A stretch of 64,000 bases of DNA from Nitrospirillum viridazoti CBAmc (GTDB lineage Bacteria > Pseudomonadota > Alphaproteobacteria > Azospirillales > Azospirillaceae): NCBI RefSeq assembly GCF_000730165.1, contig NZ_CP022111.1, forward strand, positions 682,001-746,000, in the 5' to 3' direction. The stretch's first letter is position 1. Each line of letters opens with the position of its first letter. The notes beneath the pieces were generated by a model. It had not been told where the DNA came from, made no database searches, and saw nothing but the letters and a program-made list of their open reading frames with translations. This document shows positions 50,169 through 57,499 of the stretch, one piece after another. Made by a program: the position numbers and the translations under genes.

Positions 50169-50996
50169 CTATTCCGTGTCCCGCCATGGGGCCCGCCGTG
50201 GCGGCCAGGGGACGAAGGCGCTGGTACGCCGGCAGTAGTCGGCAAACGCGGCCCCTCGGGACCGGGTCATATGGGCCTCCAGCGGCGGCAGGCCGGAGAC
50301 ATGGACCAGCAGGACATACATCATGAGGGGGCCGACGAAAGCGAGCCAACCCCAAGGCCAAAGCCCCTCCGGCCCCGGTGCCAGGGCGAAGCAGGGATAG
50401 GCCAGCCAGCTCAGCCATTCGAAAAAATAGTTGGGGTGCCGCGACCAGCGCCACAAGCCGGCATCGCAGACCCGGCCATGGGCATCGGGCCGTCGGCGGA
50501 AACGGGCCAGCTGGGCGTCGGCCACCCCTTCGCCGGCGATGCCCCCCAGCAGCACCAGCGTGCCCAGCACGTCCCCGCCGCCAAGGCCGGGTGCGGGGTT
50601 GCGGGCCGCGGCATAAACGGTCACCCCCAGCAGGGCCGCGGCCACGGCCTGGCTTTGCAGGAACCAGAACAGGCGGGCGGGGGCCCGCGGCCCCCAAACG
50701 CGCATCAGCTCGGCATATCGTGGATCGTCACCGCCGCCCCGGGTACGCACCCCGATATGGGCGGCCAGGCGCGCCGACCACAGCCCCACCAGCGTAGCGA
50801 CCAGGATTTGCCGGGCGGTGGGGGGCGCCCCGTTCACGGGAACCAGGGCAGCGGCCAGGCCACCCGCGCCGACGGCCAGCGACCAGCACGTGTCCACCCA
50901 ACCCGATTGGCGGGTGCGCCGCTGGATGGCCCAGGCCAGGGCCATGAGGGCGCATTGGCCAAGTGCCACGACCGCCAGCAGAAGGGCGGGCGCCAA
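50169..50996 (-). CDS. DUF1295 family membrane protein (steroid 5-alpha-reductase/ICMT-like)
   Basis: A 275-residue membrane protein with about six TM helices. The C-terminal signature VCDAGLWRWSRHPNYFFEWL, then LLVHVSGLPPLEAHM and YCRRTSAFVPWPPR, is the DUF1295 / isoprenylcysteine methyltransferase-like motif. The role in sigmaE clusters is thought to be lipid modification, but the reaction is unproven. The likely start is TTG 50996, three bases after the chrR stop, so it is translationally coupled with chrR; ATG 50945 would cut the first TM helix. Confidence 0.82.
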   Translation of the reverse strand: MAPALLLAVVALGQCALMALAWAIQRRTRQSGWVDTCWSLAVGAGGLAAALVPVNGAPPTARQILVATLVGLWSARLAAHIGVRTRGGGDDPRYAELMRVWGPRAPARLFWFLQSQAVAAALLGVTVYAAARNPAPGLGGGDVLGTLVLLGGIAGEGVADAQLARFRRRPDAHGRVCDAGLWRWSRHPNYFFEWLSWLAYPCFALAPGPEGLWPWGWLAFVGPLMMYVLLVHVSGLPPLEAHMTRSRGAAFADYCRRTSAFVPWPPRRAPWRDTE

Positions 50997-50999
50997 GGG

Positions 51000-51683
51000 T
51001 CAGAGCCCGACCAGCGGCTGGACCAGGCGGCCCAGCAGGCTGTGGATGCGCAGCCGGCCGTGCACGGCGATCAGGCACAGGCAGTCGCCATCCGGCTCCG
51101 CCAGCGGCTGGTGATCCACGCTGGCATCCACCGCCGCCATGTCGCCGGAGCCGAAGCGGCCGAAGACGTCGTTGAAGGCGCCGTCGATGACACAGGTGTA
51201 TTCCTGGCCCCGATGGCCATGCATGGGTATGGCCATGCCTGCCGCCACCCGGAACAGCATGACCTTGTAGCCTTGGGCAGGGTCGACCCGCACCGCGCGT
51301 CCCCGGATGCCGGGCGCGACGAACCGCCAGGGGCCCAGCCGCTGGCGACGCAAGGCGGCGGGCAGCGCCGGATCGGGGTCGAGGGTGGGCACGTCCGCCA
51401 GCGGTCGTTTCTCCTCCAGGCGGGCGCCATCAAGCCGGGCAAGCGTGCGCTCCAGCGCGTCATCGGCCAGCGCCACAGGACGCTGGCTGTTCAGCAGGGC
51501 GCCGCCCAGCGCCTCCCATGCCCGCACCTGGTGGCGGCAGATGGGGCAGAAGTCGAGATGGGTGGCCACCACCAGCGCGGGGCCGTCGGCCAGGGTGCCG
51601 GCGGCGTGGCGCGACAGCAGGTCGGCGTCGGGATGGTGGGTGGGGCAGGGCAGGGAAGGTGGCGGGCGCATGGCGGCGATCAT
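51000..51683 (-). CDS. chrR: ChrR-type anti-sigma factor with cupin domain
   Basis: A 227-residue zinc anti-sigma factor that holds the sigma factor until singlet oxygen or a related stress acts. The N-terminal ZAS domain has ATHLDFCPICRHQ with His42, Cys46 and Cys49 and an upstream His. The C-terminal cupin (about residues 120-215) has MHGHRGQEYTCVIDG and VDHQPLAEPDGDCLCL, carrying the ChrR-type His/Glu metal site. Its start overlaps the sigma-factor stop as ATGA, so expression is coupled. Confidence 0.92.
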   Translation of the reverse strand: MIAAMRPPPSLPCPTHHPDADLLSRHAAGTLADGPALVVATHLDFCPICRHQVRAWEALGGALLNSQRPVALADDALERTLARLDGARLEEKRPLADVPTLDPDPALPAALRRQRLGPWRFVAPGIRGRAVRVDPAQGYKVMLFRVAAGMAIPMHGHRGQEYTCVIDGAFNDVFGRFGSGDMAAVDASVDHQPLAEPDGDCLCLIAVHGRLRIHSLLGRLVQPLVGL

Positions 51684-52402
51684 CGTTCGGCCCCCCCGGG
51701 ATCGATCACGCCGCGCAGGCGGGCCATGGCCAGGCGCAGGCGCGACTTGACCGTCCCCAGCGGAATGCCCAGGCGGCGGGCGATGTCCGGGTGAGGCGCG
51801 TCTTCAAAGAAAGAAAGCCGCACGACCGCCAGTTGATCCGGGGGCAGGGTGTCAAGGGTGGCGCGCAGGCGGTCCGCCGCCTCTGCCGCGAACAACAGGT
51901 CGTCCGCCGGTTCCGGCTCGGCCGGCGTCAGGCTTTCCTGCGCCACGGCGGCCTCCGCCGAGCGGCTGCGGCGGGCCGCGTCGATGCGCAGGTTGCGGGC
52001 GATGGTGAAGATCCAGGTGGCGGCCCGCGCGCGGGATGGGTCGAAGATGGCGGCCTTGCGCCAGACGGCCAACATGACCTCCTGCGCCAGCTCCTCCGCC
52101 TCCATGGAGGGCAGGCCGGTGGTCAAGAGATAGCTCTTGATGCGGGGGGCGTAGTGCCGGAACAGGGCCGAGAACGCGGCGCGGTCGCCCTGTGTGGCGA
52201 TGGCCCGCAGGTGGCGGGCGTGCACGTCCTCCAACACGACCGTGTCAGCCGTGGCGCCGGCTGCGGTACGGCCTTCCGGAAGGATACCATCCCCGCCGCT
52301 GCTCACGCGGCCGTCCCCCGGCCGGGCCCAGGACATGCCAGGCCGGCCGGTCGATGGCCGGCGACGGGGTAATGCGGTTCGAAGGGTGCGGGCGTCATGC
52401 AT
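51680..52402 (-). CDS. rpoE: ECF RNA polymerase sigma factor, RpoE/ECF11-like
   Basis: A group-4 sigma factor of up to 240 residues. Region 2 is FSALFRHYAPRIKSYLLTTG, AEELAQEVMLAVWRKAAIFD and RARAATWIFTIARNLRIDAA. Region 4 is LPPDQLAVVRLSFFEDAPHP and RRLGIPLGTVKSRLRLAMAR. It is paired with ChrR, as in the Rhodobacter singlet-oxygen response. The start is uncertain: ATG 52402 lies only about eight bases after the -10 of its own promoter, which would make the mRNA leaderless; ATG 52336 and GTG 52306 are internal options. The first 50 residues are poorly conserved. Confidence 0.92.
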   Translation of the reverse strand: MHDARTLRTALPRRRPSTGRPGMSWARPGDGRVSSGGDGILPEGRTAAGATADTVVLEDVHARHLRAIATQGDRAAFSALFRHYAPRIKSYLLTTGLPSMEAEELAQEVMLAVWRKAAIFDPSRARAATWIFTIARNLRIDAARRSRSAEAAVAQESLTPAEPEPADDLLFAAEAADRLRATLDTLPPDQLAVVRLSFFEDAPHPDIARRLGIPLGTVKSRLRLAMARLRGVIDPGGAER

Positions 52403-52409
52403 GTCACTC

Positions 52410-52436
52410 TATACGAACCACGGCGGATTTGGATCA
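52410..52436 (-). promoter_or_regulatory. RpoE-type autoregulatory promoter
   Basis: On the minus strand TGATCC (52436-52431) and CGTATA (52415-52410) are spaced by 15 bases. They match the plus-strand promoter nearby and the sigmaE/ECF11 style (TGATCC then CGTA) known from Rhodobacter relatives. They place the transcript start at about 52403, right at the possible first codon of rpoE. Confidence 0.65.
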
Positions 52437-52450
52437 GCCGCTGTATTGAC

Positions 52451-52478
52451 TGATCCAGCATTCACCCTGGCGCGTATA
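52451..52478 (+). promoter_or_regulatory. RpoE-type promoter for DUF1365-cfa
   Basis: TGATCC (52451-52456) and CGTATA (52473-52478) are spaced by 16 bases. The transcript should start at about 52485, giving a leader of about 38 bases to the DUF1365 gene. Together with the minus-strand copy it makes a divergent pair, 15 bases between the -35 elements. Confidence 0.7.
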
Positions 52479-52522
52479 GGGGTCGCAAGCTTTTACTGCC
52501 AGGCGTGGGAGGCATGGGGCCG

Positions 52523-53386
52523 ATGTCAGACATGGATGCGGACTTGGCGGATATGGGGAAACCCGGCGCCCCAATGTCCGGCCACAGCGCCCTCTACCGA
52601 GGCTGGGTGGCCCACCGCCGCACCTGGCCGCGCCGCCACCATCTGCGTTATCGCGTCTGGTCCATGCTGCTGGACCTGGATGAGCTGCCGGCCCTGCACC
52701 TGCGGCTTCGGCTTTTCTCCCACAACAGTTTCAACCTGCTGTCCTTTCATGACGCCGATCATGGGGACGGTTCCGGCAGGCCCCTGGCGGACCAGGTGGC
52801 GGGGCTGCTGGCCGAGGCCGAAGCCGGCTACGACGGCGGTGCGATCCGGCTGTGGTGCATGCCCCGCGTCCTGGGCTACGCCTTCAACCCCATCAGCATT
52901 TATTTCTGCCATCGCCGCGACGGCACGCTCTGCGCCTTGGTGCATGAGGTGAACAACACCTTCGGGCTGCGGCACAGCTACGTCATTCCGGTGGATGCCC
53001 GGGCGGCCGCTGGCGGCGTGGTGCGCCAGCACTGCACCAAACATCTCCACGTCTCCCCCTTCCTGGACATGGACGCGCGTTATGAGTTCCGCGTGTCCCC
53101 GCCCGCAGAGGGCTTGACCGTGGCCATCCAGGTGCGCCCTGGCGATGACCGGGACGAGCGATCCGCGCCCATCCTGTCCGCCTGCTTCAGCGGACGGCGC
53201 CTGGCGCTGGATGATGCCGGCGTCCTGATCGCCTGGGCGGCGCAGCCGCTGCTGACCTGGAAGGTCGTGGCGGCGATCCACTGGCAGGCCCTGAAGCTGT
53301 GGCTGAAGGGCGTCGGCTTCCGGCCCAGCCCGCCGCCGCCGCCCCGGTCCGTCACCATCGTCACCTCCGCCGATCCTGGCATCTAG
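52523..53386 (+). CDS. DUF1365 family protein
   Basis: A 287-residue cytoplasmic protein with the DUF1365 pattern: SALYRGWVAHRRTWPRRHHL, FNLLSFHDADHGDG, RLWCMPRVLGYAFNPISIYF, ALVHEVNNTFG and KHLHVSPFLDMDARYEF. It normally accompanies Cfa-like methyltransferases in sigmaE or LitR operons and is thought to act in fatty-acid modification; the reaction is not proven. The ATG at 52523 is preceded by GGGAGG about 11 bases upstream; ATG 52514 and GTG 52505 are in frame. It is 13 bases from cfa. Confidence 0.87.
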   Translation: MSDMDADLADMGKPGAPMSGHSALYRGWVAHRRTWPRRHHLRYRVWSMLLDLDELPALHLRLRLFSHNSFNLLSFHDADHGDGSGRPLADQVAGLLAEAEAGYDGGAIRLWCMPRVLGYAFNPISIYFCHRRDGTLCALVHEVNNTFGLRHSYVIPVDARAAAGGVVRQHCTKHLHVSPFLDMDARYEFRVSPPAEGLTVAIQVRPGDDRDERSAPILSACFSGRRLALDDAGVLIAWAAQPLLTWKVVAAIHWQALKLWLKGVGFRPSPPPPPRSVTIVTSADPGI

Positions 53387-53399
53387 GACTTCACCACCC

Positions 53400-54641
53400 A
53401 TGTCATTGGACATCTCTCCCTCCCCCGTGGCCTCATCCCCATCCCTGCAACGGCTGTCTCTGCAACGGCTGCCTGCCGCCCTGCTGTCGCGCATGATGGC
53501 GCGGCTAGCGGTGGGGCAGATCACGGTGCGGTTGCCGGACGGCACCCGGCTGACGCGGCGGGCGGCGCAGCCTGGGCCCGAAGGCGTGCTGGAACTACAT
53601 CGCTGGCGCGCCGTGCGGCGGCTGGCGCTGGGCGGTGACATCGCCTTCGCCGAAGCCTATGCCGATGGCGATTGGTCCAGCCCCGACCTGCCGGCCTTGC
53701 TGGAACTGGCGGCGCGTAATATTTCCCGGTTGGATGGCGCCATGGCCGGCACACCGCTGGCCCGCATGGTGAACCGGCTGTTGCATCGTGGCCGCGCCAA
53801 CACCCGGGCCGGCAGCCGCCGCAACATCATTGCCCATTATGATCTGGGGAACGACTTCTATGCCCGCTGGTTGGACCAGGGCATGGCCTATTCCTCCGCT
53901 CTCTATACGTCTCCCGACCAATCGCTGGAGGCGGCGCAGGCGGTCAAGCTGGACCGTATCGTCCAGCTGCTGGGCATCAGCGGCGGGGAACGGGTGCTGG
54001 AGATCGGCTGCGGCTGGGGTGGCTTGGCGGAACGGATCGCGCGCGAAGGCTGCCATGTCACCGGCTTGACCTTGTCGCCCGCCCAGCTGGCGGCGGCGCA
54101 GGACCGGTTGATCGAGGCCGATCTGGGCTGCCGCGCGGATCTGCGCCTGCAGGACTATCGCGACGTCACCGGCACCTACGACCGCATCGTTTCCATCGAA
54201 ATGCTGGAGGCGGTGGGGGAACGCTACTGGCCGCTGTACTTCCGGACGCTGCGCCAGCGCCTGTCCGATGACGGGGTGGCGGTGCTGCAGGTCATCACCA
54301 TCGACGACGCCCGCTTTGGGCATTACCGCAGCAATGTCGACTTCATCCAGCGCCACGTCTTCCCGGGTGGCATGCTGCCGCCGCCCGGCCGCCTGGCGCG
54401 GGAGGCGGCGGCGGCCGGCCTGCGACTGGACGGGGCGGAAACCTTCGGCGACAGCTATGCCCGCACCTTGGCGGAATGGCGCCGCCGCTTCCATGCCGCC
54501 TGGGCCGACATCCAGGCCCAAGGGTTCCCGCCCCGCTTCCGCCGGCTATGGGATTACTATCTGGCGTATTGCGAGGCGGGGTTCCGCGCCGGCCTGATCG
54601 ATGTCGGGCTCTATCGCCTGGTTCCGGCATCTTGCCCGTAA
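53400..54641 (+). CDS. cfa: Cyclopropane-fatty-acyl-phospholipid synthase family methyltransferase
   Basis: An S-adenosylmethionine-dependent methyltransferase of 413 residues acting on unsaturated acyl chains of membrane lipids. It has NIIAHYDLGNDFYARWLDQG, MAYSSALYTSPDQSLEAAQ, the SAM motif VLEIGCGWGGLAERIAREGC, LTLSPAQLAAAQ, SIEMLEAVGERYWPLYF and DFIQRHVFPGGMLP, all typical of Cfa. In Rhodobacter a sigmaE-dependent Cfa-like methyltransferase makes furan fatty acids that scavenge singlet oxygen; this gene may have that role rather than cyclopropanation. Second in the sigmaE operon. Confidence 0.92.
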   Translation: MSLDISPSPVASSPSLQRLSLQRLPAALLSRMMARLAVGQITVRLPDGTRLTRRAAQPGPEGVLELHRWRAVRRLALGGDIAFAEAYADGDWSSPDLPALLELAARNISRLDGAMAGTPLARMVNRLLHRGRANTRAGSRRNIIAHYDLGNDFYARWLDQGMAYSSALYTSPDQSLEAAQAVKLDRIVQLLGISGGERVLEIGCGWGGLAERIAREGCHVTGLTLSPAQLAAAQDRLIEADLGCRADLRLQDYRDVTGTYDRIVSIEMLEAVGERYWPLYFRTLRQRLSDDGVAVLQVITIDDARFGHYRSNVDFIQRHVFPGGMLPPPGRLAREAAAAGLRLDGAETFGDSYARTLAEWRRRFHAAWADIQAQGFPPRFRRLWDYYLAYCEAGFRAGLIDVGLYRLVPASCP

Positions 54642-54657
54642 CCTGCTCAAGGGGCGG

Positions 54658-55986
54658 TCAAGCCACCTTGCGCAGGGGCTCACGCACCGACAGGCGCACC
54701 TTCATGCCGGCGCGGGGGGCGCCCAGGGTGATGCCACCCTCCGGCACCTGGGCCGCCAGCGGCCCGGACAGCGCCTCGATGTCGAAGGTGGTGACCAGCA
54801 TGGCCGCCAGGGCCGTCAGCTCCGCCGTCGCCAGCTGTGCCCCGATGCAGGCGCGCGGGCCGGCGCCGAAGGGCACGTAGGCGAACTTGTCCGGCTGCGG
54901 GCCCTCCAGGAAGCGGGCGGGTTTCAGCTCCAGCGGGTCCGCCCATTGGTCCGGCCGGCGGTGCAGGGCCCAGGGGCACAGCAGGATCGAGGCGCCCTTG
55001 GGGATGGCCACACCCGATACCACGTCGTCGGCCAAGGCCGTGCGGGCGAACCACCAGGCACTGGGGTAAAGGCGCAGCACCTCCTGCACCATGGCACGGG
55101 TGCGAGGCAGATCGCGCAGCAGGCCGGGGCGCAGCTCCCCGTCGGCGGGCAGATTCTCCTCCACCTCCTGACGCAGCCAGGCAGCCAGATCCGGTCGCCG
55201 GGCCAGGGCGTAGGCCAGCCAGCAGCCGGCGGTGGCCGTGGTTTCGAATCCCGCCACCAGGGCGGTGATGGCCTCGTCCCGCATGACCGCCGGCCCATAC
55301 TCCGCGACCAGGGGGTGCAAGGCCGCCAGGAAGCCCTTGGGGGCCTGGGCGAAGCCAGCGATCTGGCGCTCCATTTCCGCGATGGCGCCGCGGAAGGCAC
55401 GGCCTTCCCGCGTGGGCAGGTACATATCCAGATCCACCAGTCGCCACATGGACAGGCTGAGATGACGGTGGGCGACGCAGCCCGCCCGGTAGATGGCGTC
55501 GGCGGCCGCCGCGTCCTCCAGCCGTTCATGGAACAGGGCCGCGATCACCATGCGCATGGTCAGCCGGCCCATCAGGCCGTGCAAGTCGATCTCGGACCCG
55601 CTGGTCTGGGCCAGGCCCGCCGCTTCCTGAGCCAGCACGCACAGGGCCAGCTCCAGCCCATGGTTCAGGCGGCTTTGTGAAAAGGCGGCCTTGGCGGCCT
55701 GGCGGGCCGCATCCCAGCGCGGACCGCTGGCGGTCACCATGCCCTCGCCGAACAGGGGGCGCAGGCGCGCCTGTTCGGCCCCCTTGCCATAGGCGTCGCG
55801 GTTTTCCACGAGCACGCGCTGGAAACCCGCCGGATGGCTGATCAGGAAGGCAGGCTTGGGGCCCAGGCGCAGGGCCACGGGGACATCGGCACCGATGCCG
55901 TGGCGCTCGACGAAGCCGATGGGATCGGCGGCGAAATCGGGCAGGTCGCCCAGCACGGCGCGCCGCAGGTTGGTGATGAAGCTCAT
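54658..55986 (-). CDS. Cytochrome P450 linked to luxI
   Basis: A 442-residue haem monooxygenase without a TM anchor. Helix I is VAGFETTATAGCWLAYALAR (oxygen-activating Thr), the ExxR helix is VQEVLRLYPSAWWFARTALA, and the haem loop is FAYVPFGAGPRACIGAQLAT with ligand Cys380. The PERF-like segment is KPARFLEGPQPDKFA. All core motifs are intact. The gene begins 13 bases after the luxI stop with its own GGAG, so both are one transcript. No ferredoxin or reductase gene is linked. Substrate could be a fatty acid or the acyl-homoserine lactone itself; this is inference. Confidence 0.93.
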   Translation of the reverse strand: MSFITNLRRAVLGDLPDFAADPIGFVERHGIGADVPVALRLGPKPAFLISHPAGFQRVLVENRDAYGKGAEQARLRPLFGEGMVTASGPRWDAARQAAKAAFSQSRLNHGLELALCVLAQEAAGLAQTSGSEIDLHGLMGRLTMRMVIAALFHERLEDAAAADAIYRAGCVAHRHLSLSMWRLVDLDMYLPTREGRAFRGAIAEMERQIAGFAQAPKGFLAALHPLVAEYGPAVMRDEAITALVAGFETTATAGCWLAYALARRPDLAAWLRQEVEENLPADGELRPGLLRDLPRTRAMVQEVLRLYPSAWWFARTALADDVVSGVAIPKGASILLCPWALHRRPDQWADPLELKPARFLEGPQPDKFAYVPFGAGPRACIGAQLATAELTALAAMLVTTFDIEALSGPLAAQVPEGGITLGAPRAGMKVRLSVREPLRKVA

Positions 55987-55999
55987 GGATTGGTCTCCG

Positions 56000-56602
56000 T
56001 CAGGCGGCGCGCGGGTCGGCGCCGGCGGTGGTCCGGGATGAGGGGCTGGTGGCGTAGGCCGGCACGTCCAGGGCGATGATCACGGCGTGGATGTCGCCCT
56101 TGTGGCCTTGGCCGACATGGATGGGGGTGGTCTCCTCCGTCACCGGCAGGCCGCACAGGCGCACAAAGCGGCCGAAGGCTGGTTCCACCACCGCGATCAG
56201 ACGGTTGGCGGCGCGCGCCACGCCGAAGGCCCCGATGGCCTGCACCAGCACCTTGCCCACGTCACGCCGGTTGGCCACGTCGGGGCAAATGACGAAGCGG
56301 CTGATTTCCCATACGTCCGGGGCGTGGGGGGCCGGTCTATCCCCCAGCAACATGGGAAAGTCGCGTTCCAGCAGATAGGGTTCGGTGGTGGGCAGCGCCC
56401 GCCAATAACCCACCATGCGGCCCCCCTGGAGGGCCGCGCAGTGCCAGGCCTTCCGGTCGAATCCGTCGAATTCCAGCAGATCGACCGAGGCCACGTCCCA
56501 GCCTAAGCCTTCACGAAAAACCCGGTGCCGCAACCGCCAGGCTTGGGCCAGCAGCTCCGGCGAGTCCGGGCCTGAGAAATTCACGACGCGCAACGATGAC
56601 AT
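56000..56602 (-). CDS. luxI: Acyl-homoserine-lactone synthase (LuxI family)
   Basis: A 200-residue autoinducer synthase that joins an acyl group from acyl-ACP or acyl-CoA to S-adenosylmethionine. All core residues are present: Arg25, Phe29 and Trp35 in RLRHRVFREGLGWDV, Glu44, Asp46 and Asp49 in LLEFDGFDRKAWHC, Arg68 in GYWRALP, and Glu99, Ser101, Arg102 in VWEISRFVICPD. The tail (SPSSRTTAGADPRAA) is a disordered extension. It is divergent from luxR with a 20-base dyad between. Acyl chain cannot be predicted. Confidence 0.95.
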   Translation of the reverse strand: MSSLRVVNFSGPDSPELLAQAWRLRHRVFREGLGWDVASVDLLEFDGFDRKAWHCAALQGGRMVGYWRALPTTEPYLLERDFPMLLGDRPAPHAPDVWEISRFVICPDVANRRDVGKVLVQAIGAFGVARAANRLIAVVEPAFGRFVRLCGLPVTEETTPIHVGQGHKGDIHAVIIALDVPAYATSPSSRTTAGADPRAA

Positions 56603-56659
56603 GGTCCAACTCCGCCCGTTTTTCCGGGGTCAGTACGACATCGTTAGGGGCCTCGAAAA

Positions 56660-56679
56660 AGCTGGGCATATGCCGAGGT
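56660..56679. promoter_or_regulatory. Candidate lux box
   Basis: AGCTGGGCATATGCCGAGGT is a 20-base inverted repeat with 8 of 10 arm positions paired around a perfect GGCATATGCC core. It lies about 57 bases from the luxI ATG (56602) and about 47 bases from the luxR ATG (56726). This is the usual size and position of a LuxR-type binding site controlling luxI. Confidence 0.55.
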
Positions 56680-56725
56680 ATTCCCTCGCGCCGGCCGTGT
56701 CGAGGCATCCACCCGCGATGAAGAG

Positions 56726-57499
56726 ATGGCCATGCGAAAGATCGAGGATATGTTGTCGGCCTTCACGTCCGCCGGAACCCTGGACGATTTGAAGAACGCC
56801 CTGGACAGGCAGGTCGCTAATTTGGGCTTCGACGCCGCCAGCTACGTTGATGTGCGGCGTCTGCCGATTGCCGAGGAGCCTGTACCGTTCTACCAAACGT
56901 CGTTACGGAAGGATTTTCTAGAGACCTATCTGGCAGAGGATCTTCTGGGGTACGACCCGGTGGTGAACCGGGCCGCCACCACCAACGCGCCCTTCACCTG
57001 GGCCGATGTTCCGGAATTCCGGCCGGCCAGGGGCGGCGGCCGGGGCGCGCGCAACCGCGCGCGGCAGGTCATGGAGATCGCCCGGGACTTCGGCTACCGC
57101 CAGGGCTTCGTGCTGCCGTTGCATGCGGTGGATGGCCACGGCTTCCCCGCTTCCGCCTTGATCAGCCTGTTCTGGCGCCAGGAACCGGATCTGCTGGACC
57201 GGCCGGAACACCGCCCCGCCTGGCTGCGGCTGGCCGGGTCCTTCTATCATGAGCGGGCGCTGAACCTGCGCCGCGAGGTGGCCTTGCCACCCTTGGTCCC
57301 ACCCTCGCTGACGGACCGCGAGAGGGAATGCCTGGTGTGGGCCTGCCGGGGCAAGACGCGGGCGGAGACGGCCGATATCATGGGGGTTTCCGACCGCACG
57401 GTGGAGTTCCACCTGACCAACACCATGCGCAAGCTGGGGGTGCACAGCAAGTACCACGCCATCGCGGTGGCGGTGCAACTGCGGCTGATCGCGCCGTAA
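56726..57499 (+). CDS. luxR: LuxR-family quorum-sensing regulator
   Basis: A 257-residue AHL-responsive regulator. The autoinducer domain has DFLETYLAEDLLGYDPVVNR with Tyr68, Asp77 and Pro78, and APFTWADVPEF with Trp92. The position of the nearly invariant Trp (W57 in TraR, W60 in LasR) is Phe64. The GerE-type helix-turn-helix is SLTDRERECLVWACRGKTRA and ADIMGVSDRTVEFHLTNTMR. It is divergent from luxI and the cognate receptor by position. The Phe substitution suggests a changed lactone contact. ATG 56726 or 56732 may be the start. Confidence 0.93.
   Translation: MAMRKIEDMLSAFTSAGTLDDLKNALDRQVANLGFDAASYVDVRRLPIAEEPVPFYQTSLRKDFLETYLAEDLLGYDPVVNRAATTNAPFTWADVPEFRPARGGGRGARNRARQVMEIARDFGYRQGFVLPLHAVDGHGFPASALISLFWRQEPDLLDRPEHRPAWLRLAGSFYHERALNLRREVALPPLVPPSLTDRERECLVWACRGKTRAETADIMGVSDRTVEFHLTNTMRKLGVHSKYHAIAVAVQLRLIAP

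Follow-up and report, generated by a model that had tools for sequence, protein, structure and literature searches.

Why does a cytochrome P450 gene follow directly on the luxI gene of Nitrospirillum viridazoti CBAmc? In the window, the whole 64,000-nt stretch of DNA analysed here, luxI (56000–56602, minus strand) encodes a 200-residue acyl-homoserine-lactone synthase. The product matches the Pfam family PF00765 (Autoind_synth; 1.2e-15) with 57.9 bits against a curated cut-off of 24, which places it in the LuxI family, and its closest solved structure is that of LasI (1ro5, E 3.3e-21). Residues R25, F29, W35, E44, D46, D49, R68, E99, and R102, which we take to be the LuxI catalytic core set, are all present and are invariant across 16 P450-linked LuxI proteins. 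The P450 gene (54658–55986, minus strand) encodes 442 residues with the p450 domain (PF00067, 5.2e-56) as the sole Pfam match, and a fused reductase domain is absent. The protein retains AGFETT, ExxR, and FGAGPRACIG, presumably the defining I-helix oxygen, ExxR, and cysteine heme-loop motifs of P450s, and its predicted structure (pLDDT 91) has the P450 fold, nearest to that of CYP184A1 (7wzl/7wzm). The two genes have an operon-like spacing of 13 nt (55987–55999, minus strand), which contains a GGAG ribosome site (55995–55998, minus strand) 8 nt ahead of the P450 ATG; luxI has a GGAG site of its own (56610–56613, minus strand), both sites being read from the sequence. The first-pass annotation had described an intact LuxI followed 13 nt later by an intact P450 with its own ribosome site, and both descriptions hold.

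A third gene, absent from that annotation, is divergent from luxI across an intergenic region of 123 nt. This gene (56726–57499, plus strand) encodes Autoind_bind (1.2e-20) and GerE (4.7e-18) domains, which, together with the linkage to luxI, predict a LuxR-type receptor and regulator. A candidate lux box, AGCTGGGCAT-ATGCCGAGGT (56660–56679), matches at 8 of 10 dyad positions and is weak evidence. Its half AGCTGGGC is invariant across eight aligned intergenic regions, and the box is the sole match in its own genome at up to three mismatches; 36 of 500 shuffles equal the dyad, which is non-significant in the eight other regions tested. No terminator-like or sigma-70-like site is found in 54500–56800, where shuffled sequences give means of 0.8 and 0.2, so that the test is uninformative. 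On the other side, the P450 gene adjoins an ECF sigma/ChrR-like pair with genes for DUF1295, DUF1365, and cyclopropane fatty-acid synthase proteins (50169–54641). This set, which in our estimation resembles the Rhodobacter singlet-oxygen sigma-E regulon, occurs in genomes of the genus whether or not they carry the luxR–luxI–P450 block.

The pair is conserved in relatives, a point on which the first-pass annotation had made its proposal depend. In the family, 17 LuxI places occur in 16 of 82 genomes; a P450 adjoins ten of them, six are without a P450, and one (L029) lies at a contig edge. In the class sample of 385 genomes, 59 contain LuxI places, 77 in all; four weak places were left out (G395, and one each of G234, G103, and G226). 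A P450 adjoins 11 of the 73 places examined, across eight families (f1, f16, f44, f64, f95, f114, f135, and f151), and none was found beside the other 62, four of these at a contig edge. The family and class counts overlap by two loci (G000 and G069), and loci with fewer than 400 bases of contig past luxI (L029 for the family; L051, L064, L080, and L095 for the class) are counted as unlinked. Because the profile used to call P450s beside luxI was built by iteration from the P450 of the window, very distant ones could be missed. Among named genomes, searched with a profile from six closer rows, luxI adjoins the P450 in at least 14 of the best 80 P450 relatives, including the nine best; four of these 14 loci (L114, L115, L116, and L118) repeat loci counted before, L114 being the cassette of Nitrospirillum amazonense BR 12005. 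Genomes with the pair include those of Methyloligella sp. GL2, Aquabacter cavernae, Microvirga lenta, and Microvirga pudoricolor. In addition, RefSeq annotates luxR, luxI, and P450 genes on a conjugative plasmid, p1S06B, from Bradyrhizobium japonicum S06B-BJ, where the ORFs of luxI and the P450 share 41 nt. In that plasmid search, luxI lies under the P450 match in one of the 25 matches listed (32 matching records); with a clade B or a clade C P450 as the query, no luxI annotation lies under the match among the 25 listed of 189 and 257 records, respectively. The spacing of the pair varies: in clade B, the luxI–P450 gap is 185–296 nt in six of seven loci, which is not operon-tight, and 48 nt in L031, these lengths resting on start codons chosen by script.

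One family genome (G075) carries two diverged luxR–luxI–P450 cassettes, L032 and L037, one near Nitrospirillum and the other grouping with Methyloligella, Aquabacter, and Microvirga. Two luxI–P450 loci (L119 and L121) come from metagenome-assembled genomes (MAGs) titled Candidatus Marinimicrobia and group with a Rhodospirillaceae MAG; these are perhaps misbinned contigs. In one alphaproteobacterial MAG, the luxI-adjacent P450 (L124:3959-5242) is without the canonical heme-cysteine motif and may be decayed, misassembled, or repurposed. The heme motif is also not seen in the L033 P450, because a contig end cuts its sequence short. The Bradyrhizobium plasmid P450 (L208:5998-7284) has AGHHTT in place of AGFETT, and the AGxETT pattern is unmatched in the related P450s of L122, L133, L154, L162, and L168.

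Linked rows cluster in both trees. In a quick P450 tree of 84 rows (reduced from 114 by taking out four duplicates and, from L153 on, keeping one unlinked row in three), the label 'next to luxI' requires 4 changes versus a shuffled mean of 24.2; in a quick LuxI tree of 98 rows (102 less the same four duplicates), the linked label requires 5 changes versus 25.2. In neither case are any of 500 shuffles as low. One LuxI branch of 29 rows contains 27 of the 29 linked LuxIs, with an SH-aLRT of 90, below the tool's mark of 95. The unlinked rows in it are L029, at a contig edge, and L030 (G038), whose 10-kb locus, 2.5 kb of it downstream, is P450-free. The remaining two linked LuxIs (L045 and L046) group with L051, also at a contig edge. 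Ten of the 29 rows were recruited through their P450, so part of the clustering is ascertainment; the surveys of the family and the class supplied the other 19, and 17 of these are linked. The linked P450s fall into a first branch of 17 rows, all linked (SH-aLRT 99), a second branch of seven rows (SH-aLRT 97), and a third group of five plus the unlinked L125, at a contig edge. Therefore, the association either is old or has more than one origin. Over 22 pairs, thinned from the 29 linked pairs, the distances among the LuxIs and those among the P450s are correlated (Pearson 0.82, Spearman 0.70), and none of 5000 permutations reaches this Pearson value, the correlation being confounded by common ancestry.

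Two genomes, G228 (locus L042) and G470 (locus L196), encode the P450 and the LuxI in one ORF of 686 residues, with the P450 at residues 30–457 and Autoind_synth at 481–628. The order, P450 then LuxI, is opposite to that in the operons. The core residues are kept in the LuxI half of the L042 fusion. A LuxR ORF lies upstream of the L042 fusion and is divergent from it, and L196 has an ORF that, judged by eye, is closely similar. The two genomes belong to one genus of a family other than that of the window; among the 17 genomes of that other family searched, they alone have a full-length match to the fusion. The two fusion proteins are 96% identical, and since two separate genomes carry the fusion, an assembly error behind it is unlikely. 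Chance adjacency or a purely local neighbourhood, with an assembly artefact producing the fusion, is an alternative explanation for which no evidence was found. Chance pairing is very unlikely because the pair recurs in many families, eight of them in the class sample, and because the 7.38-Mb genome itself contains only one PF00765 match, the luxI of the window, and five P450 matches. The RefSeq-annotated plasmid copy also speaks against it. With the pair recurring and a second fusion found, we reject this explanation as exceedingly improbable.

The block also comes and goes as a unit. Among seven genomes of the genus, five have both luxI and the P450 and two (G060 and G064) have neither; in these two, the flanking genes for cyclopropane fatty-acid synthase and a DsbD-like protein are adjacent, with no luxR, luxI, or P450 match between them. 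Across 21 diverse cassette loci (flanks of about 4–7 kb, ORFs of at least 90 residues), a LuxR cluster and a joint LuxI and P450 cluster each occur in 21 of 21. LuxI and P450 form one joint cluster because the fusion protein joins them; LuxR, LuxI, and P450 were also each found separately at the 21 loci. Clusters of 18, 8, and 5 loci are antisense to the P450 or luxR among the rows listed, an aminotransferase and an untyped family each occur near three of the 21 loci, and the remaining small clusters were left untyped. A helix-turn-helix regulator family occurs near five of the 21 (L048:8829-9248, typed as HTH_3 by Pfam; L042:5014-5793; L154:2048-2467; L168:5820-6230).

This gene content bears on what the P450 does. 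According to one explanation, which the first-pass annotation had offered as its alternative, the P450 would turn over some unrelated substrate, yielding a quorum-controlled metabolite, and would be no more than the first target of LuxR. Genes past luxI can indeed be LuxR targets, and several linked loci have long luxI–P450 gaps. However, any other gene is found in at most five of the 21 loci, which weakens this explanation; moreover, across gains, losses, and carriage on a plasmid, the P450 keeps to LuxIs that are related, and the fusion exists. We keep a quorum-controlled metabolite as an unlikely, though not negligible, alternative.

The luxI–P450 pair is thus real and conserved, and it would extend the three-gene acyl-homoserine-lactone (acyl-HSL) circuits with a P450 as the third gene. 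We put the probability at about two in three (0.66) that luxR–luxI–P450 is a portable quorum-sensing circuit in which the P450 acts as an oxidase on the signal's acyl chain. LuxI would make an acyl-HSL. The P450, made from what is probably the same transcript, would oxidise the chain, and its substrate may be the completed acyl-HSL or, at an earlier stage, the acyl donor that has yet to be condensed. The divergent LuxR, as the putative cognate receptor, would then recognise the oxidised acyl-HSL as the signal. We infer this role from the constant company of the synthase and the receptor without a common further pathway, from the physical fusion with the synthase, and from the fold, since one crystal of CYP184A1 contains oleic acid, a weak guide to the substrate. 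For the circuit, we count the linkage, the fusion, the trees, the distance correlation, the recurrence of the trio, the joint absence of the block, the plasmid copy, the CYP184A1 fold, and a Mesorhizobium precedent. Against it, we count the clade B gaps, the reverse order of the fusion and its restriction to a single genus, L030, L124, the six family places and most class LuxI places that are P450-free, the SH-aLRT of 90, and the confounded mirror tree. The first-pass annotation had coupled the P450 to the synthase and suggested that it tailors the signal; the coupling is supported across many genomes by the conserved linkage, the fusions, the joint absence, and the correlated trees, and tailoring itself is the most probable reading, of which the omega-hydroxylation named there as an example would be one conjectural form.

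The same linkage evidence fits equally well an enzyme that removes the signal. In that case, oxidation by the P450 would inactivate or reset the signal, and the enzyme would be a built-in quencher made alongside the synthase. CYP102A1 of Bacillus megaterium, a P450 with an NADPH-P450 reductase (PMC3794736, PMC5479921), is reported to hydroxylate C12–20 acyl-HSLs at omega-1 to omega-3 in vitro (Chowdhary 2007), an oxidation that a review counts as quorum quenching (PMC3794736). However, a quencher encoded in one operon with the synthase, or fused to it, would break the signal down where it is made and as fast as it is made, and on this argument we consider turnover quite unlikely. The likeness to CYP102A1, as far as the accessible text describes that enzyme, is that the window P450 may also oxidise acyl-HSLs; with its 442 residues and no reductase domain, the window P450 is not of the CYP102A1 type. 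To our knowledge, CYP102A1 has no LuxI partner. A P450 that modifies the signal has been proposed before: strain MOLA 401 reportedly produces poly-hydroxylated acyl-HSLs, and its authors suggested a P450 modifying long acyl-HSLs, although the accessible part of their report does not mention linkage of that P450 to luxI (PMC5479921).

The nearest known system to luxR–luxI–P450 is the R1–I1–crotonase circuit of Mesorhizobium. As described in the accessible part of that work, the crotonase gene mlr5639, 8 bp past I1, is required for 2E,4E-C12:2-HSL and is proposed to help make the acyl-CoA substrate; the authors term the system, found in Mesorhizobium and two more genera, a three-component circuit (Suo 2023, PMC10470506). 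Going by that description, both circuits have a third co-directional gene a few bases past luxI, whereas the third protein is a crotonase in the one and, in the other, a P450, which belongs to an unrelated family and exists in a LuxI-fused form. At the window, the gene after luxI is not of the crotonase superfamily. On present evidence, luxR–luxI–P450 appears to work like the R1–I1–crotonase circuit without being a member of it. A literature search covering mostly open-access papers, with most subscription papers outside its scope, found no paper on a luxI–P450 unit or fusion, in line with the earlier suggestion that such a unit is undescribed, and the bacteria that carry it may communicate through an oxidised signal new to the literature.

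The diversity of acyl-HSLs is usually ascribed to the substrate choice of LuxI. If our reading is correct, a dedicated oxidase that accompanies luxI and luxR, in some cases as a fusion with the synthase, would add another means of making a signal private, besides that choice. The luxI–P450 pair would provide a sequence handle for oxidised acyl-HSLs in Nitrospirillum, Bradyrhizobium, Microvirga, and the like, and the circuit would supply parts for orthogonal signalling. More broadly, we lean, at somewhat better than even odds, towards widespread mobile three-component acyl-HSL circuits in Alphaproteobacteria, in which a dedicated P450 would define the signal. In the genus with the fusion, one bifunctional protein, P450 and synthase together, could hand on the acyl-HSL, or a precursor of it, from one active site to the other. 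The signals of such circuits would be a hidden family of oxidised acyl-HSLs, which standard biosensors and targeted mass-spectrometry lists may miss.

Genes of other types also follow luxI. In a partial survey of LuxI loci without a P450, 20 downstream proteins were typed by Pfam. Possible tailoring genes among them encode a WelO5-like protein (L028:8115-8768), a MaoC dehydratase whose gene overlaps luxI by 4 nt (L101:5899-6387), and a type III polyketide synthase-like protein (L069:4052-5080). In three genomes of family f23 (L075, L077, and L082), the gene after luxI encodes an AAA_30/UvrD-like helicase. In Novosphingobium, according to the accessible text, a phyH gene lies convergent with the novI circuit and is proposed as a regulated gene; as at the window, an oxygenase gene adjoins luxI, but PhyH is an iron-dependent dioxygenase, of another enzyme family than the P450 (PMC3704786). 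PhyH dioxygenase genes lie on the same strand 7, 50, and -1 nt past luxI in three other genomes of the class sample (L069:6728-7618, L097:4718-5683, and L098:6138-7079, respectively), a second type of oxygenase adjoining luxI.
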